From positions 1-50,097 of the forward strand of contig JAYKIL010000004.1 of the NCBI GenBank assembly GCA_035284745.1: DNA of 50,097 nucleotides, given 5' to 3'. Both the position numbers and the translations under genes were made by a program. The notes under the pieces were generated by a model. That model was not told the DNA's origin and did no database searches. It saw only the letters and a list, made by a program, of their open reading frames with translations. Below are positions 1 to 46,467 of this stretch, piece after piece. Position 1 is the stretch's first letter; every line of letters starts with the position of its first letter. Origin of the DNA: JAYKJB01 sp035284745 [NCBI: Candidatus Sericytochromatia bacterium] (GTDB taxonomy: Bacteria; Cyanobacteriota; Sericytochromatia; S15B-MN24).

Positions 1-1633
1 CTTCCCTCGCGTGATCGGCTTCCGAGTCGTGTGGTAACCCGATGCCGGTGGTGTAGGTCTTCTTGTCAGTGATGCCTCGGATGATGCCGAACTCTCGTCG
101 ATCCTGTTGGGCGAACCGCTGTCCTGCTTCGTCCGCGGGCGTTCCCTGGAGAATGATATTGATCTTGTGGGTGCTGTTAAGGTCTGCAACACGCGAGCCT
201 GCAACCTTTATTAGATTGATTCCTTCGGCCTGAGCACTCGGCGATGCACCGTGGTCTTGTCCACTGAGGACCCGCAGCGCCTCGGCGAGTCCCATGAGAT
301 TGATGGCGACGGGTGCGGTATTCCACGCGGCTCCGGTGGGGGGGGATTGGGCTGCGTAGAGGAAAGGAAAGGTCTCCGGTCCCCTGTGGGAGAGTCGTTT
401 GTTTCGTTCCTCCAGGTGTCGTGCTGCCCCATCAAGCAAGGTGCACAGGAGTTCTGTGGTTTCAAAACCCTGGCGTTTCGCCCGCAGGGCCAAGCGCGGT
501 AGATTGATGGTGATTCGGGCACCAAGCGCCACGCCACGCGAATGTGCGGGGGGGCACGGGAGGCAAACTTGGTCCCCAAAAACGGCGAGTGGGTTCTGAA
601 AATGAAGAAAGTCGATGCCACCCTGTGGGTGTGCGACGTCTAATGCTTCTTGAAACAGAGAAAAGTTTGGGTCTTGTGGCTTGAGATTCACCCCTTCCTG
701 AAGTTGAAAAACAAGGTGTGGCGTAGGACGACCACTTTCCTGCAACTGTTTGAGCTGTTGAAGCAGTGCACGGGTGATCGTGCGTCCGAAAGTGCTTGTC
801 TCAAGCCCTACGTGGAATGTGGTTCGCGGCTGACCCTCTATCTGACGAGACATCAGTAAATTGAGGTGGTGCACGAGCGTGATGATGCCTTGTTCGAGTT
901 CTCCCTCCGAGACGTTTGATGGAAGGTGGAGGGCCCATATGGCGTCAAAGTTCGGGATGCAAAGAGCTCCGTGCACTTCGGGCAAGGCTCCTAGGATGCT
1001 GGCAGTGGTGACAGCGGCAAGGTCGGCCACGGAATTGGGGGGGGGGAGGATTCCGCCGGTTGTCCGGAGTCCCTCTCGAAAAATCTCGCCTAATGGGACA
1101 TAGCCGCTATGGGGCGTTTGACCGAAATCACCGAGCCCGTGGATATGCCAGTCCCCGTTTTGGTGAGCATCGCGCTCGAATTTGGGCAAGAGTCGCTGCA
1201 AATTAAATTGTGCTGTCAAAGCCCGGCCGACCGCGTGATGCTTGGTCGGAGCGTTGATGCCAGAAGTCCTCTCTTTTGCTTGCAGGGCGTCGCTCAGCCA
1301 TTCCATCATTTCCGATTTCTTTTCCCGGACGCGGCTGCGTTCAGCCCGGTACAGGATAAAGGCTTTGGCCGTGCGGGCATGGCCATTTTCGATGAGCACT
1401 TTTTCGATCCCATCTTGGATTTGTTCCACTTCAGAGACCGTTTCGGGCGTGTCGCGGGTTCGATCCAAGGCGGTGATCACCTGATCAGCCAGATCCTCTG
1501 CCAAACGGTAGTCACTGCCTTGAACTGATTGGGCTGCACGCATAATGGCCGCAACGATTTTAGACCGGTCGAATGCAACCAGGCGGCCATCACGTTTCTT
1601 GATCGTCAACGGGTGCTGAGGAGGGATTGGCAT
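1..1633 (-). CDS. nrdD: Anaerobic ribonucleoside-triphosphate reductase (class III), 5' part only
   Basis: Reduces ribonucleotides to deoxyribonucleotides without oxygen by glycyl-radical chemistry. I read one open frame on the minus strand from the ATG at 1633, preceded by GGAG at a 6-nt spacing, to the window edge (about 544 codons, no stop). Residues 8-95 form an ATP-cone (KKRDGRLVAFDRSKI), the allosteric nucleotide-binding module. The body then shows class III landmarks: HIHGLGDF, PPPNSV, IPNFD, FQLQEGVN, ITINLPR and INLMGLAEAL. The usual GCR thiyl-cysteine region is replaced by a CLPC pair (C357, C360), so the protein is divergent. The zinc site and glycyl-radical loop would lie beyond the window start, so activity cannot be judged here. 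No nrdG activase is visible. Confidence 0.8.
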   Translation of the reverse strand, partial: MPIPPQHPLTIKKRDGRLVAFDRSKIVAAIMRAAQSVQGSDYRLAEDLADQVITALDRTRDTPETVSEVEQIQDGIEKVLIENGHARTAKAFILYRAERSRVREKKSEMMEWLSDALQAKERTSGINAPTKHHAVGRALTAQFNLQRLLPKFERDAHQNGDWHIHGLGDFGQTPHSGYVPLGEIFREGLRTTGGILPPPNSVADLAAVTTASILGALPEVHGALCIPNFDAIWALHLPSNVSEGELEQGIITLVHHLNLLMSRQIEGQPRTTFHVGLETSTFGRTITRALLQQLKQLQESGRPTPHLVFQLQEGVNLKPQDPNFSLFQEALDVAHPQGGIDFLHFQNPLAVFGDQVCLPCPPAHSRGVALGARITINLPRLALRAKRQGFETTELLCTLLDGAARHLEERNKRLSHRGPETFPFLYAAQSPPTGAAWNTAPVAINLMGLAEALRVLSGQDHGASPSAQAEGINLIKVAGSRVADLNSTHKINIILQGTPADEAGQRFAQQDRREFGIIRGITDKKTYTTGIGLPHDSEADHARE

Positions 1634-15504: not shown

Positions 15505-15562
15505 TTAAGAAGCCTCCAGTGCCTCTTTCCCGCGAAGGGGCGAAACCAAATGAGACGACCGA

Positions 15563-15982: not shown

Positions 15983-16010
15983 GATGTACCTCTTTTGCTT
16001 TCAGGCTTTG

Positions 16011-16427: not shown

Positions 16428-16512
16428 GAAATGGAACCCCCGTAAGCATCATGTGACACGTTATGTCTATCTCATCAAGACAGAGGCGGGCAGGTGGGCA
16501 CAGTGCCGCACA

Positions 16513-17241: not shown

Positions 17242-17576
17242 TGGACAGCCCCTTTTTGTGTCGGGTCTTGCCCATCTTGGCGCAACAATTGATGCAGCAT
17301 CGCCTCACGAAGCGTGTTGCCGCTGGCCGTTGTGTAGGCTTGAGCAAGTTCCTGGTCCATCAGGTGCATCAGCACGTTCGTATCGCCCCCCCCGAAAATA
17401 CCCCCTTCGTCCTCGCCCGCGGCTGATTCCCTCATTTCTCGAAACATCTGAGAAAAAAGGATGCTTGCGAAGTCGTCAACAGCCTTTTTGAGTTGTTCTT
17501 CCCGCGCGGCACTCGAAGGCTTTTGGAAGCCTTCAACAGGCATCGGTAAGAAGGTGGGGGCGACGATCGGTTGCAT
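17238..17576 (-). CDS. flgJ: FlgJ-like rod-binding protein (without muramidase domain)
   Basis: Predicted rod cap or scaffold in the periplasm; 112 aa. It matches only the FlgJ N-terminal domain (DDFASILFSQMFREMRESAA, GIFGGGDTNVLMHLMDQELA, LREAMLHQLL). The C-terminal peptidoglycan hydrolase domain of enteric FlgJ is absent, as in many non-enteric bacteria. I prefer the ATG at 17576, with GGAG five bases upstream, to a longer start at 17624. It lies 25 bases after flgI and overlaps fliA by four bases. Confidence 0.88.
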   Translation of the reverse strand: MQPIVAPTFLPMPVEGFQKPSSAAREEQLKKAVDDFASILFSQMFREMRESAAGEDEGGIFGGGDTNVLMHLMDQELAQAYTTASGNTLREAMLHQLLRQDGQDPTQKGAVQ

Positions 17577-17601
17577 AGAGGCTCCTTGATACCTTTTTAC
17601 C

Positions 17602-18735: not shown

Positions 18736-18768
18736 AGTTGGAACTCTCTGCCAGAGGATAGGGACGAT

Positions 18769-19359
18769 CTACCACAACCAGTTGAATAGGCGAGTGAGAA
18801 GACCTGGTGTAGCTTTTGCGGTGGCGGGGCCGGAACCTTTGACATCGATATTGGCATCGGCCACCCGGCTCGAATCAATTCGGTTGTCGGGCGAAATGTC
18901 CAAGGGGCGTACTATTCCCCGTATGGTAATATTCGTCTCTTCATCGTTGACGCGGAGGAGTTTCGAACCCACAATGCGCAACGTCCCGTTCGGTAAGACC
19001 TCTTCTATCCGCGCAGTGACATCCATTTGTAAGCGCCCGTTCCGACTCGTCAGACCTTCCCCTTGGAAGTCATCCCTGCCGCGGATATCGGTGGCGTTCT
19101 GAAGCAATCCCGGAATAAGGCCTCCAAAATCGAAGTCGGTTCGAATTCGCCCGTCTTTTCTGCGGTTGGTCAGGGCGCTTGATTCGGCGATGGTTCGCTC
19201 GGTCACCACCACCGTAATCAGGTTTCCCACTCCCAGGTATGGTCGGGCGAAACCCGTCAGATTCTCGTTCGGGCCCTCGGTAAAAAGGGAATCTGCCCAC
19301 ACCGGTGAGGAAGAAAGGACCAGTGTGGCAGCGGCCAACCCAACGGCAATTTTACGCAC
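18769..19359 (-). CDS. flgH: Flagellar L-ring protein FlgH (no lipobox)
   Basis: Outer-membrane ring of the flagellar basal body; 196 aa. Motifs: GNLITVVVTERT, ARIEEVLPNGTLRIVGSKLL, VNDEETNITIRGIVRPLDIS. Enteric FlgH is a lipoprotein. Here the signal peptide ends SSPVWADSLF with no cysteine, so cleavage by signal peptidase I is expected and lipid anchoring is absent. GTG start at 19359 with GGAG eight bases upstream. The stop of flgA lies 5 bases before this start. Confidence 0.93.
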   Translation of the reverse strand: MRKIAVGLAAATLVLSSSPVWADSLFTEGPNENLTGFARPYLGVGNLITVVVTERTIAESSALTNRRKDGRIRTDFDFGGLIPGLLQNATDIRGRDDFQGEGLTSRNGRLQMDVTARIEEVLPNGTLRIVGSKLLRVNDEETNITIRGIVRPLDISPDNRIDSSRVADANIDVKGSGPATAKATPGLLTRLFNWLW

Positions 19360-19364
19360 GAGAG

Positions 19365-20072
19365 TTACTCCTCTAGTCGTAGTTCGACCTTGTTAGGCCC
19401 TGTGACGCGCGCCATAAATTCGTGCTTACTTTCTAAATTGACAATCTTTACCAGTTGTCCGATGCCCCCTGCGGAACGGGCCTGTCCCCTGCTGATAACG
19501 GTTAAACCCCCCGCTTTGACGGTGACAGAGACGTCCTCGCCCATTTTGATTAAATTGGGGACCTTAAACATTCTCGCTGTCAGCAGGGTCCCTGGGTAGA
19601 TATCCTGAGTGCACTCGTTCCCGATGACCTGCGCCAATTCCGTCAAGGGGGATTGATTGGGGTGATTCAGCGCGCGACGGCTCCATTCGAAGTCTTCCGC
19701 TTGCGGAATGCTGCCGCGGGCAATTCTTCTTCTGCTCACCAGGACGTTGCGCATCACTTGAATGTTCAGTCGAGGGAAAATCGTCCGAAACTTTTGACCG
19801 TTGACCAGCACTTGCACTGGAACGCTTGCAGTGCCTCCCAAGGAAGCATTTTCACTCACCCTGATGGACACTTTACCTGCAGGCAGAGCCGGAACGAGGT
19901 TATTCAATGACATATCTCGCCAGGCCACATCGATGTCGCCCTTCGATATCTGCAAGCGTTTCATCGCTTCGTGACGAACCGCTTCGATGACGTCACTTTC
20001 ACGCAATTGCGGAGCGGCATGTGCCGCCGGCGCTGCCGCGAGAAACAAGGTTGTCAATAACAGTCTTAACAT
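19365..20072 (-). CDS. flgA: Flagellar P-ring assembly chaperone FlgA
   Basis: Periplasmic chaperone for FlgI polymerisation; 235 aa. I choose the ATG at 20072 because it opens a clean signal peptide (MLRLLLTTLFLAAAPAAHAA); the frame extends upstream without Shine-Dalgarno support. The C-terminal SAF domain is clear (VSRRRIARGSIPQAEDFEWS, GTLLTARMFKVPNLIKMGED, VSVTVKAGGLTVISRGQA). It lies directly before flgH in the same operon. Confidence 0.92.
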   Translation of the reverse strand: MLRLLLTTLFLAAAPAAHAAPQLRESDVIEAVRHEAMKRLQISKGDIDVAWRDMSLNNLVPALPAGKVSIRVSENASLGGTASVPVQVLVNGQKFRTIFPRLNIQVMRNVLVSRRRIARGSIPQAEDFEWSRRALNHPNQSPLTELAQVIGNECTQDIYPGTLLTARMFKVPNLIKMGEDVSVTVKAGGLTVISRGQARSAGGIGQLVKIVNLESKHEFMARVTGPNKVELRLEE

Positions 20073-20275
20073 AGTGCTGTCCCAACTTAACAAGCTGGAG
20101 TTCTGGGCGTCGGTGAGGCCCGTTACGCTCAGTGCCTCGCGGCGGGCGAAAAGTGGGTGAAAGTGATGGTAAAACAGAACACTTCCTGTAACACCATCGG
20201 CATAGCAGGAAGTGGGCTTGACCAAAAAAGCGAGAGAAACCGCGCAGCGGGTGGTCTGCGAAGCGCTCAGGGAGA
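20073..20275 (-). other. flgG-flgA intergenic region with a 9-bp inverted repeat
   Basis: 203 bases between flgG and flgA, the largest gap inside the rod/ring block. It holds CACTTCCTG at 20180-20188 and its complement CAGGAAGTG at 20206-20214, with a 17-base loop. No T-run follows, so it could be a weak attenuator or processing site. I see no coding sequence and no convincing promoter. Confidence 0.4.
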
Positions 20276-21067
20276 TTACCGGAACAACTGGTTCGCCGTG
20301 TCCATCATTTTGTCGGAAACTTGGATGGCCTTTGAGGCGGTGTCGTAGGACTTCTGTGTGGCAATCATCGTGACCATTTCAGTCACAATGTCCACATTCG
20401 AAGTTTCCAGCATGCCCTGTTTGATAAGTCCACGCCCCTCAAGGGCGGGACGACCGACGGTGGGTTCTCCCGAAGCCGGCGTTTGCTTCAGCAAATTGTT
20501 ACCAATGGCTGATAATCCGGCAGGATTTGGAAAGCGAGCAATTTGAAGAACGCCAACCTCTTCTTGTTGCGGACTGAGGGGGCGACGAACCAACACGAGG
20601 CCATCTTCTCTGATATGAATGTCGGTGGCATCAATGGGAATCTGCAATTCAGGAGAGAGCACAAGGCCTGTTGACGTGACAATGCGTCGGTTTTGGTCCA
20701 ACTTGAACGAACCGTCTCGCGTGAAGGCCAACGTTCCATCGCGTTCTTGCACGATAAAGAAATCATTGACGAGGCCGATGGCGTTGCTCGAGTTGTCGAT
20801 GGCGAGGTGAAGGGGGTTGTTCGAAACTTGAAACGACCCGTGGGAATACAGTTTGGTCGACGCAATTGGTCGAACACCGCGCCCTACCTGATAGCCGGCA
20901 TACTCCAGTCCTGGTTGGTTGAGGGTCTGATAAACCAGGTCTTGAAAGTCGACCATGGACTTCTTAAAGCCAGTGGTATTCACGTTCGCCAAGTTGTTGG
21001 CGATGGTGTCGATACGCATTTGCTGTGCTTGCATACCCGTTGCCGCAGTCCAGATGCCGTGAATCAT
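20276..21067 (-). CDS. flgG: Flagellar distal rod protein FlgG
   Basis: Distal rod subunit, 263 aa, close to the family length of about 260. It carries the rod/hook N-terminal motif (WTAATGMQAQQMRIDTIANN, LANVNTTGFKKSMVDFQDL), an FlgG-like core (VGRGVRPIAS, FFIVQERDGTLAFTRDGSFK) and the C-terminal motif (LETSNVDIVTEMVTMIATQK). Start ATG at 21067 with AGAGGAA upstream. It follows flgF by 34 bases. Confidence 0.95.
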   Translation of the reverse strand: MIHGIWTAATGMQAQQMRIDTIANNLANVNTTGFKKSMVDFQDLVYQTLNQPGLEYAGYQVGRGVRPIASTKLYSHGSFQVSNNPLHLAIDNSSNAIGLVNDFFIVQERDGTLAFTRDGSFKLDQNRRIVTSTGLVLSPELQIPIDATDIHIREDGLVLVRRPLSPQQEEVGVLQIARFPNPAGLSAIGNNLLKQTPASGEPTVGRPALEGRGLIKQGMLETSNVDIVTEMVTMIATQKSYDTASKAIQVSDKMMDTANQLFR

Positions 21068-21101
21068 CGCGGTGTTCCTCTTGAAGTTTGGCGCAGGGCG
21101 T

Positions 21102-21836
21102 CTATACCGAGCGACCCAAGTCGTTGACGGTTTTGTTCAGAAGGTTGTCCTGAATGGTAATCGCCTTCTGGTCAAAGCTAAATGAACGGTTCAGCGCAAT
21201 CATGTTCACCATTTCACTGATAACGTTCACATTGGAGTTTTCTAGAAATCCTTGTTCCATGGAGTAACCGCCTTGGGCTGCCGGGACAGTGGCGAGGCTC
21301 ACAGGGAAATTGACGGACGAGACATTGGCGGGGCCCACAACCTTGATTTGCGCCACTTGATTATTTCCAGACATTACGCCGCCGTCAGGTCGAATCCGCA
21401 GTGTTTCTGTGGCGATGGCACCCAGCCTGATAAATTGGTTGTCGGCACCCAGGACGCGGGCGCCGTCTTGGGCGGCGAGGTAGCCCTCGGCATCTAGGCG
21501 AAAATCTCCATTGCGGGTCACTTTCACTGTTCCGTTGGTGTCCTGTGTTTGAAAGTATCCATCGCCGGATATCGCAAGATTTAATGGGTTATTGGTGCGT
21601 ACCAGCGAACCTTGATTTTCCCACCGGGCTTGCCCTGCATTGTAGACCCCCAAGCCCACCCGGTTTGCATCGGTGGGCCTGCTAAATTGCGTCACAAGGT
21701 CGCCGAACGTTTCCGGCAACAGTTGCGTGCGCTTGTAGCCAGGCGTATTCACATTCGCCATGTTGGCAGCCACTTCAGTCAATTGCTGCATCTGGAAATT
21801 CATGCCGCTCGCTGCGATGTAAATACCTTTTAGCAC
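21102..21836 (-). CDS. flgF: Flagellar rod protein FlgF (FlgG-like)
   Basis: Rod subunit of 244 aa, paralogous to the next gene. Motifs: IYIAASGMNFQMQQLTEVAA, NMANVNTPGYKRTQLL, DGYFQTQDTNGTVKVTRNGD, FLENSNVNVISEMVNMIALN. The order flgF-flgG supports FlgF, although single proteins of this class are hard to separate from FlgG. GTG start at 21836 with AGGTAA upstream. Confidence 0.88.
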   Translation of the reverse strand: MLKGIYIAASGMNFQMQQLTEVAANMANVNTPGYKRTQLLPETFGDLVTQFSRPTDANRVGLGVYNAGQARWENQGSLVRTNNPLNLAISGDGYFQTQDTNGTVKVTRNGDFRLDAEGYLAAQDGARVLGADNQFIRLGAIATETLRIRPDGGVMSGNNQVAQIKVVGPANVSSVNFPVSLATVPAAQGGYSMEQGFLENSNVNVISEMVNMIALNRSFSFDQKAITIQDNLLNKTVNDLGRSV

Positions 21837-31380: not shown

Positions 31381-31467
31381 GGCACTTCCCAGGCACGCAC
31401 CCATCCATCCGCACTCACCGATAGGAGGGCACTTCCCAGGCACGCACCAATCCGTCTGCACTTACCG
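31381..31467. repeat. Tandem duplication (period 47 bp) at the 3' end of the WD40 gene
   Basis: 31381-31420 and 31428-31467 are 40-bp copies with four differences. Read on the minus strand, the distal copy encodes SVSADGWVRAWEVPL and a stop in its own frame, while the gene's present end is SVSADGLVRAWEVPSYR. Because 47 is not a multiple of three, the gene now stops inside the downstream copy. Confidence 0.9.
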
Positions 31468-33655
31468 AGTACAGTAAACGACCACTGGGGTCAAAAGCCA
31501 CATCGTGTACGGTCGTCGGGTGCTTGAACCTGGCGACCGCAGTGCCTTTCTCATCCCAGATAATCACCCGGCCGTCACGCCCCGCGCTGGCGAGCAAATT
31601 TTCTGTCGGGTGGAAAGTCACGGCCAACACCGCCGCGTCGTGAGGTCGGTTCAGCGTGTCGATCAGGTTGCCCGAATTAACGTCCCATCTTTTAATGGAG
31701 CCATCCGCCGAACAGGTGGCGATTTGCTGACTGTCTTGGCGCACGGCAACCCCCGTGACGACGTCTCTGTGACCACTCAATTGCCACAGGATACTTCCAT
31801 CTTGCCAGTTCCAAACGATGGCAGTTCTGTCATCGCTCGAACTCACCAGGAATCGACCATTGGGTGAAAAAGCCACATCGGTTGCTGCGGCCTCGTGGCC
31901 CCTCAGGGTTGTTTGAACGGCCCCACTCCGTGCATTCCAAATTTTTACGGACCCTCCACTACCTTGCCCTGAGGCGCTCGCAAGTAGCTCGGAGTCACTG
32001 GGATGGAAGGCCACTCCGTTCACCTGCCATCGCTCCTGGCTTCCGATGGCTTGGCCCAAGGTCACGTCATTGCGAGGGTCACCCACAGGATGAACCGTTA
32101 TTTTTCCGGGGTAGGCTGAGGTTCCACCATTGCCACCCGTCGCCACATAGCGGCCATCGGCGCTCACGTCAACGCAAAAAGCAAGGCTGGTTTCTCGGTG
32201 GCCATCGTAGCGCTGGGTCAGGCGACCTGACGTCCACTGAAAGACTTCTCCCGCGGCCCCAGCACTGTAAACGACGTCGGCGTTTCCTCTGGCGGCCACG
32301 GAAAAGACGGTCCCGCTGTGCGCTTTGTACGTAGCCCGCGGCGTGATTATCTCGAAATCCGCTGGGAGGATCGTAGCAATGGGCGCCAGCGTTGCACGTA
32401 CAAGTGGAGTCGGGGTTGGAGATGGCGTGGCAATCGGCTGAATGACTCTGATGGGGGTTGTGGATGGCACAGGGGTCGCCGTTGGCCGGGCCCGAATCTC
32501 CGTTTCCTCCGCTGTGTTTTCGACGGGCGGAAGGGCCTCTGAATCCGTTTTTTGTGTTTCATTTGGTTCCGCTTCCGCCGTGTTCGGGCGGGGGCTTTCA
32601 GCCACGGAGGAAGGGGTTTGCGCGGCGATTACTTCGGCGATTACCTCCGCGGGCGGTGGCGTTTCGGGTTCACCCAAGGCACTTAAAGCGATGGAACCAA
32701 GATTGACTAGCGCCTTCGCCTCTTCGACGCTGTTAGGAGGGGCTACTTCTCTATTCTCTCGCTTGAGGGCGTGGTCAGGGTGGAAGACAACCACCGTGTA
32801 AGAGCCTGCCAACACGTTCGCCAGGCTAAATTGACCTTGGTCGTCGGAGATGACTGACAGACTGACAGGTCCTGTTAATGAGACAGCGGCCCCACTCAGC
32901 GGCTGGCCGTCGGCGCCGGTGACAGTTCCTGCGGCGCGGAGGGGAAGTTCGCTCAATTTCGCGGGTTTGAGGTCGAAACTGAGGTCCGATGTTTTCCCTG
33001 CCCTGACTTCGACGGTTTGTGTCAACGGCGCATAGCCTGGAAAAGCAGCGGTGAGCTTGTAGGTGCCGGCTGCTAGGTTTGCAAAAGCGAATGCACCGTC
33101 ATCTTTGGCCTTGGCGATGTTGGTGGTTCCGGCGATAAAGATGTCTGCTCCGAGCAAGTCTTCGCGCTTGCCTTCCAGGGCAACCGTTCCAATGACGCTG
33201 CCCGTTTGCCTCAGGACCATACTGGCCAGATCTGTGGTTTGTTCGGGTGCGCTGAGGTCGACACGATTGCGAACTTTCATCAGGGTTGATTCAACCTGTT
33301 TTTCGGCAATCACGTGGTGTTCCCCAACAGGAACGCCGATTAACTCAAAACGACCCTCAGCATCCGACTTTGTTCGAAAATTTGGCAAGCCCTCAAGATA
33401 CACCTCCGCCCCGTCAATCACACCCGGCGTTTGGGCCAATGAGTAATCGATGCCATCGAATACCACCTTCCCACGGATGGTAGCTCCGAAGCGTTGTCCT
33501 CCCCCGTCATTCTGCACGGTCCCCGGGTCCACTGCCGGGGCCGGCGCGGGACAGCCTGCCAAGGCAGCAATCAACAGCAGTGCCGCCAGACGACCCAGGT
33601 TTCTCGGACGCGCGAAAGAGGGTGTGTGTGGGGTAGGCAAGGGGAAGATCCTCAT
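31415..33655 (-). CDS. Lipoprotein with carboxypeptidase-regulatory-like domains and a C-terminal WD40 propeller
   Basis: 746 aa from the ATG at 33655 (a TTG at 33670 is in frame; neither has a clear Shine-Dalgarno). The signal peptide ends LAALLLIAALAGC, a good lipobox. Residues about 50-330 hold three carboxypeptidase-regulatory-like repeats (GKVVFDG, DAEGRFELIGVPVGEHHVIA; GAFAFANLAAGTYKLTAAFP; AGTVTGADGQPLSGAAVSLT, QGQFSLANVLAGSYTVVVFH). A Pro/Thr/Glu-rich linker follows. From about residue 444, seven or so WD40 blades follow (VAFSPNGRFLVSSSDDRTAI, WNWQDGS; IATCSADGSIKRWDV; LLASAGRDGRVIIWDEKG). The last three residues come from an out-of-frame duplicate of its own 3' end. It is likely a surface scaffold; substrate unknown. 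Confidence 0.85.
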   Translation of the reverse strand: MRIFPLPTPHTPSFARPRNLGRLAALLLIAALAGCPAPAPAVDPGTVQNDGGGQRFGATIRGKVVFDGIDYSLAQTPGVIDGAEVYLEGLPNFRTKSDAEGRFELIGVPVGEHHVIAEKQVESTLMKVRNRVDLSAPEQTTDLASMVLRQTGSVIGTVALEGKREDLLGADIFIAGTTNIAKAKDDGAFAFANLAAGTYKLTAAFPGYAPLTQTVEVRAGKTSDLSFDLKPAKLSELPLRAAGTVTGADGQPLSGAAVSLTGPVSLSVISDDQGQFSLANVLAGSYTVVVFHPDHALKRENREVAPPNSVEEAKALVNLGSIALSALGEPETPPPAEVIAEVIAAQTPSSVAESPRPNTAEAEPNETQKTDSEALPPVENTAEETEIRARPTATPVPSTTPIRVIQPIATPSPTPTPLVRATLAPIATILPADFEIITPRATYKAHSGTVFSVAARGNADVVYSAGAAGEVFQWTSGRLTQRYDGHRETSLAFCVDVSADGRYVATGGNGGTSAYPGKITVHPVGDPRNDVTLGQAIGSQERWQVNGVAFHPSDSELLASASGQGSGGSVKIWNARSGAVQTTLRGHEAAATDVAFSPNGRFLVSSSDDRTAIVWNWQDGSILWQLSGHRDVVTGVAVRQDSQQIATCSADGSIKRWDVNSGNLIDTLNRPHDAAVLAVTFHPTENLLASAGRDGRVIIWDEKGTAVARFKHPTTVHDVAFDPSGRLLYSVSADGLVRAWEVPSYR

Positions 33656-33725
33656 CTTGGAGAGGGGCAACGATCGGAAATCAGCGGGCTTTTCATGCGG
33701 GTGAAGATGAAAATTCTTCGGAAGA

Positions 33726-36211: not shown

Positions 36212-39200
36212 ATGCCTACAACGAATAAGCTCCGAGTAACCCCTTACAGCGGTGCGACCTCACTGGCGGATAACCTGCCAGATTTGATTGAGATTCAACG
36301 CAACAGTTTTCAATGGTTCCTTGAAGAGGGACTCAAAGAAGAATTGGTGTCGTTTTCGCCGATCAACGACTATTCCAATCGGTTGGAGTTACATTTCCTG
36401 ACGAATTACACGTTGGGAACGCCGAAATACACGGTAGACGAGTGCCGTTCGCGGGACGCTACGTATGCGCGACCCTTGCGGATTCCCGTGCGGCTGGTGT
36501 CAAAAGAAACCGGTGAGGTGAAGGAGCAGGAAATTTTCGTCGGTGACTTGCCGGTGATGACGGATCAGGGAACCTTTATCATTAATGGTGCTGAGCGGGT
36601 CATCGTTTCGCAGATCGTGCGGTCGCCGGGTGTTTACTACAAGCGGGAGACTGACCCTTCGGGCAAGAAAGTATATTCCGCCACCATCATTCCGAACCGG
36701 GGTGCCTGGCTGAAGTTTGAGACGGACGTCAACGATCTTATCTATGTTCGAATTGACAAAACCCGGAAGCTCTTGGCAACGGTTCTGCTCCGCGCCTTGG
36801 GTTATCAAAACCACGAAATGTTGGAATTGTTCCGGCATCAGGACTACCTTCAAAAGACGCTGGATGCCGACAAGACGGAAACCATGGAGCAGGCGCTCAT
36901 CGAGGTTTATAGAAAACTCCGACCCGGCGATATGCCCTCCGTGGAAGGCGGGCGTTCCGTGTTGTTCGCTCGCTTCTTCGACCCGAAACGTTACGATTTG
37001 GGTCGAGTGGGCCGTTACAAGGTCAACAAGAAGTTGGGATTGTCAACCCCGATGTCGGATCGCATCCTGACGCGTGAGGACATTGTAGGGGTCATCGAAT
37101 ACCTGATCAATCTTAACTTTGACGTAGGCCAGGTGGATGATATTGACCACTTGGGCAATCGACGGATTCGCTCGGTGGGCGAATTGCTTCAGAATCAGTT
37201 CCGTGTCGGTTTGACTCGCCTGGAGCGGATCATCCGAGAACGGATGACCATTCAAGAGCCTGAGACTTTGACGCCTCAGAATCTGGTGAACGCGAAGCCT
37301 TTGGTCGCGGCCATCAAGGAGTTCTTCGGGTCATCACAGTTATCGCAGTTTATGGACCAGACCAATGCGTTGGCTGAATTAACCCACAAGCGCAGACTCT
37401 CGGCTTTGGGACCGGGTGGTTTGACCCGCGAGCGCGCAGGTTTCGCGGTGCGCGACATTCACCCGTCTCACTATGGCCGTATTTGCCCTGTCGAGACTCC
37501 GGAAGGACCTAACGCGGGCCTGATCGGCTCTCTGGCGACCTATGCGCGCGTCAACGAGTACGGCTTCATCGAGGCGCCCTGGCGTCGGGTGGTGCAGGGT
37601 AAACTGACAGAGGAGATCGTCTATCTGACGGCGGAGGAGGAGGACGAATTCCGGACGGCTGCCGGCGATACGCCCCTGACTGCCGATGGGACGACCTTCC
37701 GTGACGACAAGGTGCCGGTCCGTTACAAGGCTGAGTTCTTGTTTGCATCGCCGACCGAGGTGGACCTGATCGGTGTGTCTCCCATTCAGATTATCTCGGT
37801 CGCTACCGCGCTCATTCCTTTTATTGAGCACGATGACGCGAACCGCGCCCTGATGGGATCGAACATGCAACGGCAATCGGTGCCATTGCTGCGCCCCGAG
37901 CGTCCTCGGGTGGGAACGGGTCTGGAAACCCGTGCTGCGATCGACTCAGGCTTGGTGGTGACTGCTGCGGAGGGCGGCACGGTCAGTCGGGTTGAAGCCA
38001 CCCGCATTCAAGTGAAAAGTGACAGTGGTCGGGATCGTTGGTATCAGCTGACGAAGTTTCTTCGTTCGAACCAAGACACCTGCTTGAACCAACGCCCCAT
38101 CGTGGCGAAGGGACAACGGGTTGAGGCGGGACAGGTGCTGGCAGATGGCCCTGCCACCCACCTTGGCGAGCTGGCGTTGGGACAGAATCTTCTCGTAGCC
38201 TTTATGCCTTGGGAAGGCTATAACTTCGAAGACGCGATCCTGATAAGCAAGCGCTTGGTGATGGATGATGTCTTTACGTCAATCCACATTGAAAAATACG
38301 AAATTGAGTCGCGGGCAACCAAGCTGGGCAATGAAGAAATCACCCGCGAGGTGCCGAACGTCGGCGAAGATGCCTTGAAGGACCTCGATGAGCGCGGGAT
38401 TATCCGAATCGGCGCGGAGGTTGAGCCGGACGACATTCTGGTCGGCAAGGTCACGCCAAAGGGCGAGTCTGAGCATCCACCCGAAGAGAAATTGTTGCGT
38501 GCCATTTTTGGCGAAAAAGCACGGGATGTCCGGGATACCTCGTTGCGGGTGCCCCACGGTGAAAAGGGTTGGGTTGTCGATGTGAAGGTCTTCGCCCGAG
38601 ACCAGGGAGATGATTTATCTCCTGGCGTCAATCAGGTGGTGAGGGTGTACATCGCTCAGAAGAGAAAAATTTCCGTTGGGGATAAGGTGGCGGGTCGCCA
38701 TGGCAACAAGGGTATCGTTTCAAAGATCCTTCCCCCTGAGGATATGCCGTTCTTGCCCGATGGTACCCCGGTGGACATTGTATTGAATCCCTTGGGTGTT
38801 CCGTCCCGGATGAACGTGGGACAGTCCTATGAGACGCTCATGGGTTGGGCCGCAAAGAACCTGGGCATTTACTTTGAGATCCCTCCTTTCGACGAAATGT
38901 TCGGCGAGGAGAGCTCTTATGACCTGCTGCGGCAGCAATTGGATTCCGCCAGAGAGACCTCATCGCGGGACTGGATCAGCAACACCGGTAAAATCACGTT
39001 GTACGACGGTCGTACGGGTGATGCTTTTGATCGCCCCGTGACGGTGGGCACCATCTATATGATGAAGCTCGTTCACTTGGTAGATGACAAGATTCACGCG
39101 CGGTCGACGGGTCCCTACTCTTTGGTGACCCAGCAACCCCTCGGTGGTAAGGCGCAGTTCGGAGGACAACGTTTCGGTGAGATGGAAGTGTGGGCTTTGG

Positions 39201-39511
39201 AGGCCTATGGAGCGGCGTACACGCTTCAAGAGATTCTGACCATCAAATCAGACGATGTTCCGGGCCGTGCCAAGGCTTACGAGGCCATTGTTAAGGGCAA
39301 AAACCTCTCGAAACCGGGTATTCCTGAGTCGTTCAAGGTGTTGATTCGCGAGTTGCAGTCTTTGTGTCTGGATGTTCACGTTGCGACGCAAGATGGCCGC
39401 GAGATTGAACTCTTTGAGGAAGACGAGGATACGCGCAATCGTTTGCGCACCCAGTTGTCGCGTGTGATGTCGATGCCGATGGGCGTCGAGGAGAAGGAGA
39501 CCTTTCGGTAA
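36212..39511 (+). CDS. rpoB: RNA polymerase beta subunit
   Basis: Catalytic subunit of RNA polymerase, 1099 aa. This is a short form, lacking the large lineage-specific inserts of proteobacterial RpoB and close in length to cyanobacterial proteins. The rifampicin region is conserved ([39 protein letters not shown]). The residues equivalent to E. coli D516, H526 and S531 are D382, H392 and S397, that is, the sensitive type. C-terminal motifs include [40 protein letters not shown] and a switch region near the end. rpoC follows after five bases. Confidence 0.98.
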
Positions 39512-39516: not shown

Positions 39517-42500
39517 ATGACTCAGCATTTTGATTACATCAAAGTCGGCATCGCCTCTCCCGACCGCATTCGCAGTTGGTCCCGCGGTGCTGTGACCAAA
39601 CCAGAGACCATTAACTATCGCACCTTGAAGCCCGAGCGGGATGGTTTGTTTTGTGAACGTATTTTTGGACCCGCGAAGGATTGGGAGTGCCATTGCGGCA
39701 AGTACAAGCGTGTTCGCCACAAGGGAATCATTTGTGAGCGCTGCGGTGTAGAAGTTACCGATTCCAAAGTTCGCCGTTATCGGATGGGCCATATCGATTT
39801 GGCTGCTCCGGTGGCGCACATTTGGTACCTCAAGGGTATTCCCAGTTATTTGTCGCAAATTGTGGACATTCCCCTGCGTCAATTGGAGGACGTTGTCTAT
39901 TTCAACTCCTACATCGTGATCGATCCCGGCTCGACCAATTTGCAAAAGATGGACATCATCTCCGAGGATGACTACGAGAATCTGATGGCCGATGAGAATT
40001 GCACGTTGGAAGCGGGGATGGGGGCGGAGACTCTGAAAGTTCTCTTGGCGGACTTGAATTTACCCGAACTCGGAGAGAAGCTCCGGATGGAGATTGTGAG
40101 TTCTTCGGGGCAGAAACGCGCGAAGGCCATCAAGCGCTTGCGGGTGGTGGATGCATTCATTCAGTCCAGCACCGATCCCTCTTGGATGGTTTTGGATGTC
40201 ATCCCGGTCATTCCTCCGGACCTGCGCCCCATGGTGCAGTTGGATGGTGGACGGTTTGCCACTTCGGATTTGAATGACCTTTATCGCCGGGTGATCAATC
40301 GGAACAATCGTCTTTTCCGCCTGCGCGACATGCACGCACCAGACATCATCATTCGGAACGAGATGCGGATGCTTCAGGAGGCCGTGGACGCCCTGATCGA
40401 CAACGGTCGTCGTGGGCGTGCGGTCGTTGGACCCAACAATCGGGCGCTGAAGTCCCTTTCGGATATCATCGAAGGGAAGCAAGGTCGCTTCCGCCAGAAC
40501 CTCCTTGGTAAGCGTGTCGACTACTCGGGGCGTTCGGTGATTGTTGTGGGGCCTTCTTTGAAACTTCATCAATGTGGCCTTCCCAAGGAAATGGCCTTGG
40601 AGCTGTTTAAACCGTTTGTTATGAACAAACTGGTGGAAAGAGGGATTGTTCAAAACATCAAGTCCGCAAAGAAGAAGATTGAACGCGGAGAGACCATTGT
40701 TTGGGACATCCTTGAGGATGTGATCAAGGGACATCCGGTGTTACTGAACCGCGCTCCGACCCTTCACCGCCTTGGGATACAGGCTTTTGAACCGGTGCTG
40801 GTTGAGGGGCGGGCCATCCAATTGCACCCCTTGGTTTGTACTGCCTTCAATGCAGACTTTGACGGCGACCAAATGGCCGTTCACGTTCCCCTCTCGGTTG
40901 AAGCGCAGACGGAAGCACGGTTGTTGATGATGTCGACCAACAACGTTCTTGCGCCGGCGACCGGTCGTCCTATCATCACGCCGACCCAAGACATGGTGTT
41001 GGGCTGCTATTACCTGACGACTCAAGATGCGAGCAAGAAAAAAGGAGAGGGCTTGACTTTTGCGACCCTGACAGATGCTGTCGGGGCCTATCAAACGAGT
41101 CACCTGGATCTGCACGCCCGCATCAAGGTGCGCATTAAACACGACCGTTTGCAGTCGGCGATTGGCGAGGTACAAGACCTCGAGCACGGTGGCAAGGGCC
41201 AGGTCATTGAGACCACAGTGGGCCGAATTATTTTCAACGACGCCCTTCCTTCGGGCTTCCCTTTCATCAACGCGTTGGTGAACAAGAGCATGCTCGAGGA
41301 CGTTGTGATGCGCGCCTTCGAAGAGTACTCGCCAGCCGACGCCGCGCTGTTAGCCGATCAGTTGAAGAGCTTGGGCTTCCGGTATGCAACCCGGGCCGGT
41401 GTGACGGTGGCGATTCATGACTTAACCACCCCTGATGAGAAACGGAAGGTTCTTGCCAGTGCGGAACAAGAAATCGAACGCTCCCGCCGGGCATACCTGC
41501 GCGGTGCCATCACGGAAGTTGAACGCCATAACAAGGCCATCGACACGTGGGCGGAGGCAACGGAAGAGGTTACGAAACTGATTGTCGACAAGTTCGATCG
41601 GTTGAATTCTGTGTACATGATGGCCTTCTCCGGTGCCCGCGGTAACCTGTCGCAGGTTCGGCAGTTGGTCGGAATGCGTGGCTTGATGGCGGATCCCTCG
41701 GGCCGTATCATCGACTTGCCGATCAAATCGAACTTCCGCGAAGGGCTGAACGTCACCGAATACATCATCTCCTCTTACGGAGCCCGTAAGGGTCTCGTTG
41801 ATACGGCGCTGCGAACGGCTGACTCGGGGTACTTGACCCGGCGTCTCGCAGACGTGGCGCAGGATGTCATCATTCGTGAGGAGGATTGCGGGACCGACCG
41901 GGGCGTCGCGTTGACCTCCATTAAAGACGGCGATTCGGTGGTCGTGTCGCTTGGTGAGCGCCTGAAGGGCCGCGTCTTGGCGGACCATGTCGTTGATCCT
42001 GCGACGGGAGAGGTGCTGGTCGAAGCCAACACCGTTTTGACTCAGTTGCTCGTCTCAATGATCGTGGGCGCGGGGGTTCAGCAGGTGAAGATTCGTTCCC
42101 CGTTGACGTGCCAGAGCCGAAACGGAGTCTGCCGTGAATGCTATGGTTGGTCACTGACCAATAACCAAAAGGTAGATATCGGTGAGGCGGTCGGCATCAT
42201 CGCGGCGCAGTCCATCGGTGAACCCGGCACCCAGTTGACCATGCGCACCTTCCATACGGGCGGTGTATTTACGAAGAACACCAGCACGGCGGTGGTGAAG
42301 GCCGAGCATCATGGCACCATTCAGTTGCCGGCAGATGTCTCGTCGCGTGAACATCGTACGCGTCACGGTGATGTGGTTTTGGTGACGGAACGGGAGCACA
42401 TCGTCACGCTGAAAACGGCGAAGAAAGCATACTCGATGCTTGTTCCAGCCGGCTACAAGGTCGTCGTGGAGGATGCGCAAGAGGTCCAGAAAGGCGCTGT

Positions 42501-45132
42501 GATCGCGGAATCGGTTGTTGAAACCGGGCGTACGAGCCGTAAGTCCCTTGAGAGGGCTTACAAGGATATCTCGGCGGATATTGCCGGGACCGTTGAGTTC
42601 GTTGGTTTCCGGCCTTCAGAGCGCCGGGACCGTCAGGGTAACGTTACAAAGACCGCTGATCGTCCCGGAGAGGTCTGGGTTTTGGCGGGCGATACCTATA
42701 CCTTGCCGGCGGGTTACCATGCGGTGGTGAAACCGGGACAGCACGTCAAGCAGAATGAAGTGCTGACTGAATATCGCATGGTGACTGAACACGGTGGGAA
42801 ACTCCGTTTAGGCGCTGACATTCGCACTGAGAAAGTGGATGGCCGGACGGTGATTACGGCGGGACGCGATGTGGCCATCGTGACTGCAAATATGGTTTTG
42901 CCTGGGACTGAGGTCGTTGCTGGTAAGAAGGACCTTTTCTTGCGAGCAGCGGATGGCAATGTGCTCACGCTCCGGGTCGTCGACGGGCAACGGGTGGAAG
43001 GCGACGCCGTCGTATTGGCTGACCACGTTGATGAAAGATATACCGTCTCTGGTACCGGGGAGGTCCGATTTGTCGAAGGATCCTTGTCCGAGCGTTCAGA
43101 TCGTCGCTTGGTGACGAAAAAAGGTGAGATCCTGTTCGTTCCGGAGGAGATGATCACCATCAACAAACCCGACAGTGCTTTGGGTTTCGGTCTGAAGTCA
43201 GGCATGTTCGTGGAGCCGGGGACCAGCCTCATTGATGGTCACGAATACTATACGAAGACCGCTGGTATCCTGGAGCTCTTCATTGATAATGACATGGTGA
43301 AAGAGGCCTACGTATATCCGGGAACGCGCATCGATGTTCCGGATGGGCTTGAACTTCACGTGAAAGAAGATGATCTCGTTGCGAAGGATGCCATTGTCGC
43401 GCAAGGATTCACCGCCCCCCACGAAGGCCTGATTAAGGTAATAGAGGGGCCCGAGGGCGAGCGGATTGTGATTGTTCGTTTGATCGAGCGCTTCCACGTG
43501 ATGCCAGCGGAGGACACCTTGCCGTTCAAGAGCACCACTGAGGAACTGGGTCTGAAGTCGATGACGCGGCTGGCCGTGAAGAACGGGGAACGGGTGAAGG
43601 CCGGAACCCCTTTGATTCGCACCGAGCTGGTTTTGACGAAAGGCGCGGGTCTGGGGAACCTGGCCGGGCGTATTGAAGTGACACCGAAGGGCGAGGCCGC
43701 GGAGGGAGAAGAACAAAAGTACGATTTCGCGATTGTCATCCTTGAGAACATGGCGCTGCGTCGCGACCTGCCGTCTGTCGGTCGTTTCGGCGAGCACAAG
43801 GAGGAGTTCATCGTCACCACTCTGGAGGCGAAAGACGGTGCCACTATCAAGCCGAAGACAACAGTCATAAAAACGGAGATCCTTTGCCACACGGACGGGG
43901 TCGTTCAGTTCCAAGCCGCCGAAGACTCGGAAATTCGACGGTTGGTTCTGATTACCCCAGAGCACGAGGTGCAGTTGGCTTGCAGCGGTAAATTGTTGCT
44001 TGAAGACGGCGCAGTGGTGCGGGAAGGTGACGAGCTTGCGGCGGGGGTCGTGGCCTCAGACAGCGGTAAACTTCGCGTACTGGAAAAGGGAAGGGTTGCG
44101 ATTCGGCACGGACGTCCATATCTTATCTCGAGCGGTACCCAGTTGATGGTGGACCAAGGGGATATGGTGCAGCGTGGTGAGAATCTAGCCACCCTCGTTT
44201 ATGACCGTGTCAAGACGGGCGACATCATCCAAGGCTTGCCGCGTGTCGAAGAACTTCTCGAGGGCCGGAAGCCGAAGGAATCGTCGATTATCGCGGAGCA
44301 CGATGGCACGGTTAAGCTCTTGGTCGATATCGATGAGAATGTCCGCGTTTTCATTGAAACCGAGGTGGGTACCGAGGAGTATGCGATTCCGGCCGGAGGA
44401 CGTTTGATTGCGTCTGATGGAGATACCGTTGCGAAGGGGGATCCGTTAACGGATGGCCCGATTAACCCTCACGACGTTCTGCGCGTGATGGGTGTGGAGC
44501 GCCTGCAGCGTTTCTTGGTGGACGAGGTCCAGATGGTCTACCGCTCTCAGGGCGTTGAGATTGCTGACAAACACATCGAGGTGATTGTGAGACAAATGAC
44601 CCGCAAGATGAAGGTGGATGATCCGGGTGATACCACGTTGCTTCCGGGTGAAATGGTGGATGTTCTGGAGCTTGACCGTGAGCAAAAGATGATCACGGAC
44701 AAGGAGGGCAAGCCCGCGGTGACCACACCAATTCTTTTGGGAATCACCAAGGCGTCTCTCAATACAGAGTCGTTCATTTCTGCCGCTTCTTTCCAAGAAA
44801 CCACCCGCGTGCTGACGGAAGCAGCCATCGAAGGCAAAAAGGATTGGTTGCACGGGCTGAAGGAAAACGTGGTGATTGGCCGACTGATCCCTGCAGGGAC
44901 GGGGCTTTTCAACCAACAGGATGAAGAGCCTGCGGTTGCGGATTACCTATTGCCGAGTACCGGTGCCCAACTGATTGGGGCGCCCGTCGGTGTGGGTGCT
45001 CGCGAGGAGGAGGAAGCCGAGGAGGGCTTCGCGTCTGCTGGCGATGACCTCAGTCCCGGTGAAGCGGTGATGCCGGAAGAGGGTGATGAGGAGGAGTCGT
45101 TCAGCGGCATGAGCACTGAAGAGCTCGAGTAA
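39517..45132 (+). CDS. rpoC: RNA polymerase beta-prime subunit, unsplit, with giant trigger-loop insertion
   Basis: 1871 aa, several hundred residues longer than most RpoC proteins. Zinc ribbon C58, C60, C73, C76 ([19 protein letters not shown]). The catalytic magnesium site is NADFDGDQ with D447, D449, D451. The second zinc site is C791, C865, C872, C875. The trigger-loop helix ([16 protein letters not shown]) ends near residue 916, and the conserved chain resumes at 1569 ([20 protein letters not shown]). The roughly 650 residues between are beta-rich sandwich-barrel-hybrid-like repeats, a form of the SI3 insertion. E. coli SI3 has about 190 residues; cyanobacterial SI3 is about this large, but in cyanobacteria the gene is split into rpoC1 and rpoC2. 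The protein ends with an acidic tail. A terminator follows. Confidence 0.97.
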
Positions 45133-45330: not shown

Positions 45331-46467
45331 GTGCGTGTAATCTTGTCTATGTTAATTCTGCATCTCACGCTGGTGGCGGCGAGACAGATGTCGGGGATCG
45401 AACCCATCGCCCCTTATTTACAGGCCGGCACCAGCCGCTCGATGGCGGTGCTGTGGCGCTCCTCCAAGGCGGCGCTGGGTCGGGTAGAGATGACGCCCCT
45501 CACCGCCACTTCGCGGGAGGGGCCCGCCGAGGTCTGGTCCGCGCGTGAGCCGGGGGTTGGTGTGCTCCATCAGCTTCACGTAGAAGGTCTTCAGCCCGCA
45601 ACACTTTATCGTTACCGATGTTATGACGGGGACACTCCGGCGGGCGAGGGAGTTTTCAAGACCTTGCCTGAGCGGTCCGATGCGAGCTTTCGATTCGCCG
45701 TTCTGGGAGATTCCGGGAGCGGGAATGCCAATCAAATGGCTGTAGCGAGCGCTCTAGAACGTTGGAATCCGGACTTTGTTTTGCACACGGGGGACGTCAT
45801 TTACGAACGGGGTGAAAGCCAAAATTACATTCCCCGTTTTGTTCAGCCCTACCGGGCGATTATCAACAGGGCCGTGGTCTATCCAACGATTGGCAATCAC
45901 GATCACCGAACGGAGAGTGCGGCTCCCTATTTACGATTCTTTGAGGTACCACGTGAAACTCCGACCCAAACGGAGCGATGGTATTCTTTCAGGGCCGGCG
46001 CCATAGAGTTTTACGCACTCGATACGAATATCGCCTTTGGTCGAGGCAGCGAACAGTTTCGCTGGCTAGAGGCTGCCTTGGCTCGCTCTGATGCACCGTT
46101 GCGCGTTGCTTTTTTCCACCATCCGCCTTACAGTGGCGGGTCACATGGTTCCAGTCTTTACGTTCGCAGGGCACTTGGCCCGCTCTTTGAACGCTGGGAC
46201 GTGCGCGTGGTGTTTTCCGGTCATGACCACCATTATGAGCGTTCGTTACCGCGTGAGGATTTTCACGAGGATGGACGCCCGAGCACTTACTTTGTCACGG
46301 GGGGGGGCGGCGCATGGCTGAGGCCGGTGAAACGGGAAGCTTTTTCCGCAACAGCCCGCTCAGCGTATCATTTTCTGGGAGTGACTGTACAAAAGGGGCG
46401 TGAATTTCGGGTTCGGGCTATCGATCCTCTGGGAGACATTTTCGATGCCTGGGATCTGAAAATTTAA
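45331..46467 (+). CDS. Purple-acid-phosphatase-like metallophosphoesterase
   Basis: Predicted secreted phosphatase of 378 aa. GTG start at 45331 with GAGG eight bases upstream and a hydrophobic N-terminus (VILSMLILHLTLVAA). Residues about 25-112 form a fibronectin-III-like domain ending LYRYRCYDGDTPAGEGVFKT. The metallophosphatase core then shows the metal-site motifs in order: AVLGDSGSGN, LHTGDVIYERG, PTIGNHDH, AFFHHPPYSGG, FSGHDHHYER. This is the purple-acid-phosphatase layout. It is a single gene inserted between rpoC and the str operon. The promoter is not clear; GATAAT at 45221-45226 lacks a well-spaced -35. Confidence 0.85.
   Translation: MRVILSMLILHLTLVAARQMSGIEPIAPYLQAGTSRSMAVLWRSSKAALGRVEMTPLTATSREGPAEVWSAREPGVGVLHQLHVEGLQPATLYRYRCYDGDTPAGEGVFKTLPERSDASFRFAVLGDSGSGNANQMAVASALERWNPDFVLHTGDVIYERGESQNYIPRFVQPYRAIINRAVVYPTIGNHDHRTESAAPYLRFFEVPRETPTQTERWYSFRAGAIEFYALDTNIAFGRGSEQFRWLEAALARSDAPLRVAFFHHPPYSGGSHGSSLYVRRALGPLFERWDVRVVFSGHDHHYERSLPREDFHEDGRPSTYFVTGGGGAWLRPVKREAFSATARSAYHFLGVTVQKGREFRVRAIDPLGDIFDAWDLKI

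Follow-up and report, generated by a model that had tools for sequence, protein, structure and literature searches.

The window, by which we mean the whole stretch of DNA analysed (50,097 nucleotides), carries an unsplit rpoC gene whose predicted product is a sericytochromatian RNA polymerase beta' subunit with an SI3 insert (tail, fin, body and head) in the trigger loop. We consider it likely, with a probability of roughly 0.8, that this unsplit beta' with a full SI3 of the cyanobacterial type was inherited from the ancestor of the phylum, by then also devoid of GreA, and that the gene was split later on the stem of Vampirovibrionia and Cyanobacteria. In Cyanobacteria and chloroplasts this giant insert sits in a split gene; its presence in an unsplit gene of a non-photosynthetic relative suggests that the insert came before the cut. 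The following features of the window are used below, all on the forward (+) strand.

36212-39511, +, rpoB, beta subunit, 1099 aa (from the ORF list; entered in the RpoB+RpoC trees)
39517-45132, +, rpoC, single-chain beta' subunit, 1871 aa (from the ORF list and TIGR profile matches)
41236-41265, +, site at which rpoC1 and rpoC2 are separated in Vampirovibrionia and Cyanobacteria, uninterrupted here (about residues 574-583)
42238-42264, +, N-terminal half of the trigger loop, TMRTFHTGG, residues 908-916 (from sequence)
42265-44220, +, SI3 insert of the cyanobacterial type, 652 residues, 917-1568 (from sequence homology, alignment and predicted fold)
42265-42537, +, SI3 tail, about residues 917-1007 (from structure comparison; boundaries approximate)
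43159-43308, +, stretch of the SI3 head, INKPDSALG ... DNDMVKEA, residues 1215-1264 (sigma-contact positions of Synechocystis, from the available text of PMC10120043)
44221-44280, +, C-terminal half of the trigger loop, where the conserved RpoC chain resumes, residues 1569-1588 (from sequence)

The rpoC gene follows rpoB after a gap of 5 bases and is one ORF of 1871 codons with zero internal stops, not the two genes of a split beta'. The best stretch of the TIGR02386 (rpoC) model covers residues 8-1002. TIGR02388, the model of cyanobacterial rpoC2, covers residues 583-1799 in one stretch (model positions 2-1226 of 1230) and scores 1242 bits (cut-off 467). As both models match within one RpoC chain, the gene is unsplit. 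A search of the window against Rfam at the gathering threshold gave zero matches.

The original prediction of a trigger-loop insertion of about 650 residues in an unsplit RpoC was confirmed. The conserved chain does break after TMRTFHTGG, as had been proposed: FHTGG ends at residue 916, DIIQGLPR starts at residue 1569 and 652 residues lie between them. The insert had been placed at 42265-44214; the start is correct, while the end was set two codons short of the measured position 44220. The wording of the chain at the exit from the insert had been compared with cyanobacterial RpoC2, and it matches in the alignment with such sequences.

A relationship between the insert and cyanobacterial SI3, on which the prediction hinged, was found both by sequence and by fold. 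With phmmer, the insert matched 8h3v (which we take to be the Anabaena structure), 8syi and 8gzg with E-values of 6.1e-130, 5.2e-125 and 6.1e-116, respectively, and the lowest of these values leaves no room for chance similarity. The alignment runs from end to end at 35-37% identity, lies between the two halves of the trigger loop, and is colinear throughout, with the invariant motifs RTRHG, DRQGN, PEE and QRG. The length of 652 residues agrees with the ~630-650 residues of the cyanobacterial type and falls within the 637-666 residues of the 14 Cyanobacteria measured. When the insert alone was used as a single-protein query against genome contigs, zero matches were returned. Compared with the nearest relative, pN/pS was 0.109 in the insert and 0.062 in the upstream core, with synonymous sites saturated, and the SI3 tail had the lowest identity among the seven blocks measured.

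The predicted model of the insert is mostly strand and aligns with the SBHM modules of solved SI3, which bears out the earlier description of repeated beta-rich modules. Against 8emb_A, the crystallised SI3 of Thermosynechococcus, the alignment covered 532 residues with Z 25.9 and rmsd 4.7 (Foldseek E 3.2e-40). 8emb_A is without the tail, and model positions 93-653 align with its positions 434-983; the tail is covered in the alignments with 8gzg and 9dvs, which start at model positions 7 and 2, respectively. Model positions 2-88 match the N-terminal part of E. coli SI3 (2auk) with Z 9.7, and the solved tail 8h02 had its best alignment on another module (model 98-646). The mean pLDDT of the model is 84 and its pTM only 0.57, so the relative placement of the modules is uncertain; matches to whole cyanobacterial RNA polymerase chains had an rmsd of at least 17, with the exception of 8h3v. 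The tail, fin, body and head fold of several SBHM modules was recognised by overall alignment. The available parts of PMC10802570 and PMC10120043 differ in this count, giving 8 or 9 SBHM modules.

The closest relative found was the genome G008, whose RpoC is 91% identical over residues 1-1861 and which belongs to the same class as metagenome-assembled genomes titled Candidatus Sericytochromatia. Two genomes with this title, G004 (locus L004) and G005 (locus L038), are also included in the RpoB/RpoC clade of the window. Relatives were taken as the best 80 of 408 confirmed in an alignment scan, and bear on the cyanobacterial phylum only. By relatives and by tree, the organism is placed inside this phylum and hence not far from Cyanobacteria. 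A rooted RpoB+RpoC tree was built from 41 rows, following removal of two long outgroup branches (L163 and L165) from a set of 43; fragments (L117, L118, L122, L123) and similar rows had been left out of this set. SH-aLRT support was 100 for the phylum, 98 for Vampirovibrionia with Cyanobacteria and 93 for Sericytochromatia, and in the best tree Sericytochromatia fall outside Vampirovibrionia and Cyanobacteria. The same position is given in the available parts of PMC8047818 and PMC11505929. By the AU test, a grouping of Sericytochromatia with Cyanobacteria was rejected (p=0.00275) and a grouping with Vampirovibrionia was retained (p=0.087). In a tree of SI3 only, the three classes stood apart at support 99-100; EF-G, taken as a separate marker, carried too little signal to resolve their order. 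We infer that the class of genome G107 is Vampirovibrionia, as it forms a third class, sister to Cyanobacteria, of mostly small genomes, with no Photo_RC match in the 18 fetched.

The state of rpoC was recorded across the three classes. In the sericytochromatian class, one frame runs across the split site in 12 of the 12 genomes covering it; among the 18 class genomes, the site is not covered in 6 (two RpoC matches stop short and four genomes are without an RpoC match). In the other two classes, a stop-to-stop check gave two frames in 26 of 26 loci fetched. Named cyanobacterial loci had two frames in 71 of 75 cases, with three showing rpoC2 only and one ending short of the site. Inspection of 20 rows showed the cut at one and the same loop. 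L036, one of the 71, has further frame breaks. L142 seems to be the contig of L006, so the fetched and named sets overlap by at least one locus. For some Vampirovibrionia and Cyanobacteria, listed frame lengths of 1880-2040 aa had suggested that rpoC1 and rpoC2 are fused; this lead was dropped because all 26 loci, about a dozen of which were of that kind, had two frames. Outgroup RpoC was in one frame in 10 of 10 cases, and at the insert site held 4-5 residues in six and 170-193 residues in four.

The intact gene had been proposed as a possible state before the split, and this is the best-supported reading because the sericytochromatian genes are unsplit in all covered genomes, a cut at one common loop is seen in the members checked of the two other classes, and Sericytochromatia lie outside these in the rooted tree. 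It is one step short of proof, since a grouping of Sericytochromatia with Vampirovibrionia would allow a phylum-wide ancestral split of rpoC that was reversed by fusion in Sericytochromatia, or independent splits at the same loop in the two other classes; on that retained tree, inheritance and re-fusion both take two events. We regard re-fusion or double fission as unlikely. The best rooted tree requires one event only, the grouping with Cyanobacteria is rejected, the unsplit outgroup and the published placements of Sericytochromatia argue in the same direction, and the reading frame shows no obvious linker where it crosses the split site.

The clear similarity of SI3 between classes would also be expected if SI3 or the whole RpoC had been transferred from a cyanobacterium into a sericytochromatian ancestor. 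This is very improbable, as in the SI3-only tree a branch with support 99 sets all 13 sericytochromatian rows apart and none falls within Cyanobacteria, RpoB+RpoC without SI3 gives the same grouping, and the cyanobacterial loci covering the site include no unsplit donor gene. Independent growth of an E. coli-like SI3 with two modules to equal size can draw on the HABAS additions known in other lineages (PMC11515920, available part), but is refuted by the colinear alignment of the whole insert with its invariant motifs, together with the E-value and the shared fold; we give it next to no credence. Hardly any weight is due, either, to a chimeric assembly joining rpoC1 and rpoC2. Frame breaks do occur at other places in the RpoC or RpoB of some related genomes (L122, L119); the artefact is refuted by the same single frame across the site in twelve other genomes, and by the 91% identity with G008. 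The distance from rpoC to fusA is also alike, 2.6 kb in the window and 2.7 kb on one G008 contig.

GreA was searched for in genomes of the three classes and no match was over the cut-off in 18 (Sericytochromatia), 117 and 96 genomes, with a model that was over the cut-off in 9 of 14 control genomes. Three weak matches in the class of G107 were counted as no GreA, because they stay below the cut-off, match the C-terminal half only and come from frames 1462-1593 residues long. Sericytochromatia differ from Cyanobacteria in that a Photo_RC (photosystem II type reaction centre) match was found in none of the 18 genomes and Rho was over the cut-off in 12 of 18, compared with 0 of 128 other genomes sampled. 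Rho was abandoned as a clean marker of loss together with the split, because among the genomes grouping with the window (G008, G012, G013, G011 and G003 in the RpoB+RpoC tree, G002 in the SI3-only tree) only G013 has it; this patchy occurrence probably reflects repeated losses of Rho or gaps in the assemblies. The absences of GreA and Rho weigh less than in closed genomes, since 4 of the 18 genomes are without an RpoC match and the related assemblies may be incomplete.

The sigma-contact positions of SI3 read N, K, P, A, D, M, K in the window and N, K, D, L, D, I, R in Cyanobacteria. Three of seven are identical in the window, whereas all seven are present in 20 of 20 Cyanobacteria. Sigma factors were compared for 14 of 16 genomes, those of G107 and G097 being missed by the motif filter; at the position of sigma E89, all 8 sericytochromatian sigmas compared have A or P, so that the interface is altered on both sides. 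The contact residues are a feature of the arch and do not define SI3. Judged from the residues, the sigma arch of the cyanobacterial style is probably weaker in the sericytochromatian enzyme, or formed by other residues.

By analogy with homologous solved structures, SI3 would lie along the exterior of the enzyme, with tail and fin over the rim helices at the secondary channel, where Gre/DksA-type factors could then not dock. Folding of the trigger loop on NTP binding would be expected to make SI3 swing; this and the occlusion of the channel are carried over from the cyanobacterial enzymes. The ancestor of the phylum may already have had the giant SI3 in a single chain and been without GreA, having lost Gre or never had it; fission of rpoC would have come afterwards on the stem common to Vampirovibrionia and Cyanobacteria, the split lineages being those from which Rho is absent, and refinement of the SI3-sigma arch last. 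We hold this order to be slightly more probable than even. If it is true, the origin of giant SI3 was unrelated to oxygenic photosynthesis, gene split or sigma arch, and it most plausibly began as an integral cap over the secondary channel. The expansion could be older than the phylum, the next outgroup, Margulisbacteria, lying outside our sample.

Literature searches, mostly without subscription papers, found no description of an unsplit rpoC with a giant SI3, and the available parts of PMC8047818, PMC6349859, PMC8190605, PMC10438808 and PMC11505929 do not describe the rpoC of Sericytochromatia. In the papers, as far as their text was available, giant SI3, a divided rpoC and missing Gre/DksA factors figure as a single set of features of cyanobacterial RNA polymerase. 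In the accessible sections of PMC10802570, the split and the lack of Gre/DksA are said to be possibly linked to the acquisition of SI3, the split is attributed perhaps to the size that beta' had reached, and fidelity is related to the elevated Mn content of photosynthetic cells. A lineage that has this SI3 in an intact chain of 1871 residues, and in which neither a Photo_RC match nor GreA was found, pulls these traits apart and gives them a relative order in time. It also offers a natural control for experiments on the effect of the split, and an ancestor-like enzyme for asking what the first role of SI3 was.

Among known systems, the E. coli-type SI3 (two modules, 188 residues, type 4 beta') occupies the same site and is resembled by the tail in its N-terminal part, but has neither body nor head; the flanking motifs are 193 residues apart in E. 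coli and 170-190 in three other insert-bearing outgroup rows. Plastid-encoded RNA polymerase, which has split genes, carries an SI3 of related fold (Z 13-14). In higher plants this SI3 is larger by about 160 residues, according to the available text of PMC10120043. Chloroplast transcription is run by the same polymerase lineage. The type 3 beta' of the HABAS/BEAN classification, whose trigger-loop domain has gained nine HABAS domains according to the accessible part of PMC11515920, is made of two polypeptide chains, in contrast to one here. A giant multi-HABAS insert is common to both, and the insert of the window, taken as a whole, is colinear with that of type 3 in sequence and fold. The cyanobacterial beta'1/beta'2 enzymes (8gzg, 8syi, 8h3v, 8emb) have SI3 at the same trigger-loop site, with the same size, fold and order of motifs, and likewise no GreA was found. 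They differ in having two genes and two chains where the sericytochromatian beta' has one of each, and in the sigma-contact positions, which are altered in the latter.

The polymerase genes and a neighbouring gene lie in the window as follows.

36212-39511, + strand: rpoB, head to tail with rpoC
39517-45132, + strand: rpoC, a single chain of 1871 aa
42265-44220, + strand: SI3 insert of RpoC, 652 residues, between FHTGG and [14 protein letters not shown]
45331-46467, + strand: purple-acid-phosphatase-like metallophosphoesterase, between rpoC and rpsL-rpsG-fusA

FHTGG ends at RpoC residue 916 and the conserved chain resumes at residue 1569. The single-chain rpoC model of NCBIfam has its best stretch at residues 8-1002; the cyanobacterial rpoC2 model gives 1242 bits (cut-off 467) in a single stretch over 583-1799. 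Because of the open reading frame, the insert borders and these two matches, the original prediction of an insert of about 650 residues in an unsplit RpoC, placed at 42265-44214, is correct to within two codons. Behind the insert, residues 1583-1648 (about 44263-44460) reach 41.9 bits with Pfam Apocytochr_F_C against a cut-off of 30.4, none of the stretches passing it alone, and match the NCBIfam cytochrome f model below its cut-off; the common HABAS/SBHM fold, not a cytochrome, is the likely source.

RpoC residues 917-1728, i.e. the insert and the chain after it, were used as phmmer query against all PDB chains. The top matches were 8h3v (E 6.1e-130), 8syi (5.2e-125), 8gzg (6.1e-116) and 8emb (7.2e-72), the last being the crystallised SI3 of Thermosynechococcus, and in the remaining 56 of the 60 rows listed (85 matched) the best stretch begins at query residue 592 at least, near the insert end. 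A four-row alignment gave 35-37% identity to cyanobacterial SI3, with the motifs RTRHG, DRQGN, PEE, VQRG-NL and KTGDI in all four rows. The AlphaFold2 model of the insert (33 rows) had a mean pLDDT of 84 and a pTM of 0.57, and Foldseek ranked cyanobacterial polymerase and SI3 entries first and plastid polymerases next. With VIA-align, model residues 93-653 were superposed on 8emb chain A 434-983 (Z 25.9, rmsd 4.7, 532 residues); the alignments to the whole-polymerase chains 8gzg, 9dvs and 8syi begin at model residue 2-7 and end at 648-651, but their rmsd is 17-19. The tail of the model (2..88) resembles the E. coli SI3 2auk (Z 9.7), and the best placement of the solved tail 8h02 was on a different module. 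Judged by alignment and predicted fold, the insert is the cyanobacterial SI3 with all its parts present. Between the window and its nearest relative, where synonymous sites are saturated, pN/pS was 0.109 for the insert versus 0.062 for the upstream core, and identity was lowest in the first block of the insert (72.8%); the insert is under purifying selection.

Of the named loci (the best 80 of 408 relatives), the four best, L001-L004, belong to UBA8530, NC_groundwater_1444, DBS2-1.bin124 and a MAG with the title Candidatus Sericytochromatia; the MAG of locus L038 bears the same title. Genome G008 carries an RpoC 91% identical to that of the window over 1-1861 and, on the same contig, an EF-G 93% identical. 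Because of these loci and identities, the window is assigned by sequence to the class Sericytochromatia, which was sampled with 18 genomes (the class of G004, the genome of L004). A Photo_RC match was found in none of the 18, and in 62 of the 146 genomes of the phylum.

The split state of rpoC was read directly from stop-to-stop frames. An RpoC match was present in 14 of the 18 Sericytochromatia genomes (none in G007, G009, G010 and G014), and it stops short of the split site in G015 and G019. The frame is uninterrupted over the site in all 12 covering genomes (G001-G005, G008, G011-G013, G016-G018), three of which are damaged elsewhere, G001 by upstream frame breaks and G002 and G003 by contig ends. 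Two frames were found in all 26 loci (18 + 8) from the other two classes. Among the named loci, again the best 80 of 408, 5 are continuous (L001-L004 and L038, whose genomes are G001-G005 of the class set), 71 have two frames, 3 the rpoC2 frame only and 1 falls short of the site. In 20 split rows from both split classes, rpoC1 ends about 8-26 residues past a GR(I/V) motif and rpoC2 starts at xN....K, the motif that comes next in the RpoC of the window. The outgroup RpoC is a single chain in 10 of 10 rows, with 4-5 residues at the insert site in six and 170-193 in four.

In Picosynechococcus sp. PCC 7117 (L057) the rpoC1 tail, TERTLPEGLPV, is longer than in the other rows compared. It resembles the LP stretch of the unsplit RpoC at the split site and may possibly be a remnant of the joined gene. 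No rpoB match was found within about 4-5 kb upstream of rpoC in L111 (G013), L112 (G011) and L113 (G012), whereas in the window 5 bases separate the two genes; some members of the class seem no longer to have rpoB and rpoC in one unit.

For the main tree the insert was removed, and RpoB and RpoC were combined in 41 rows and 2231 columns (LG+C20 PMSF). SH-aLRT support was 100 for the phylum versus the outgroup, 98 for Vampirovibrionia with Cyanobacteria, 93 for Sericytochromatia and 100 for the window with G008; FastTree gave the same grouping (0.92 and 0.97). This order, with Vampirovibrionia adjoining Cyanobacteria and Sericytochromatia outside, is also reported in PMC8047818 and PMC11505929. 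Constraining Sericytochromatia with Cyanobacteria was rejected (p-AU 0.00275), and the AU test does not reject Sericytochromatia with Vampirovibrionia (p-AU 0.0871). In the EF-G tree the class order is unsupported and Vampirovibrionia are broken apart, the window still grouping with G008, G012 and G013. The SI3-only tree keeps the three classes apart with support of 99-100, and therefore SI3 looks vertically inherited.

GreA (TIGR01462) was not found in the 18 Sericytochromatia genomes or the 96 of Cyanobacteria (the class of G037); in the 117 of the class of G107, which we take to be Vampirovibrionia, none was over the cut-off and three weak partial matches lay below it. The same model detected GreA in 9 of 14 control genomes. 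In all three classes a giant SI3 thus coincides with the lack of a GreA match, including the class with an unsplit rpoC. PMC10802570 describes SI3 tail and fin as obstructing the Gre/DksA docking site in solved cyanobacterial complexes. Rho was over the cut-off in 12 of the 146 phylum genomes, all within the 18 Sericytochromatia, and in only one (G013) of the six closest to the window, a hint that Rho was lost more than once or that contigs are missing.

According to PMC10120043, the SI3 head of Synechocystis contacts sigmaA E89, I92, R96, H235, E236 and G238 through seven positions. All 20 Cyanobacteria compared read N,K,D,L,D,I,R at these positions, against N,K,P,A,D,M,K in the window. In Vampirovibrionia (n=17) H replaces R668 throughout, S replaces N626 in nine and V or T replaces I666 in seven; in Sericytochromatia (14 rows) the positions are variable, with a gap or G at N626 in six and Q at R668 in six. 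With the numbering verified on 8gzg chain F (offset 4), all of the eight sericytochromatian sigmas compared have A or P in place of the acid at E89, seven have V at I92, five K at R96 and four Y at H235. The known arch looks like a later refinement, and a weaker or different contact, e.g. D665 with K96, is possible in the window.

Other genes of the window are listed below.

9846-21836, - strand: flagellar block (flagellin, FlhA, FliF, FliE, FlgC, FlgB, FliA-kind sigma factor, FlgI, FlgH, FlgA, two FlgG/FlgF-like proteins)
13252-15069, - strand: FliF, flagellar MS-ring protein, 605 aa, C-terminal Pfam FliG_M at 534-601
31415-33670, - strand: 751-residue protein, carboxypeptidase-regulatory-like repeats and WD40 propeller

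Pfam supports flagellin, FlhA, FliF and the sigma factor (sigma-70 regions 2 and 4); the rest of the block was named from sequence by eye. It looks as if a FliG part is fused to FliF.

Directly supported are homology and fold over the whole insert, the single chain in all covering class members, one cut loop in both sister classes, GreA not found and changed arch residues. We propose that the giant SI3 and the absence of Gre would have preceded rpoC fission, that SI3 would sit over the secondary channel and, by analogy, swing together with the trigger loop, and that the sigma arch would have arisen last. No description of a single-chain form with giant SI3 was found in the literature searched, most subscription journals lying outside the search; as far as seen, the parts are already known, and their combination and ordering are new. 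The classification paper PMC11515920 gives the beta' with giant insert, its type 3, as two chains, whereas the RpoC of the window is one.
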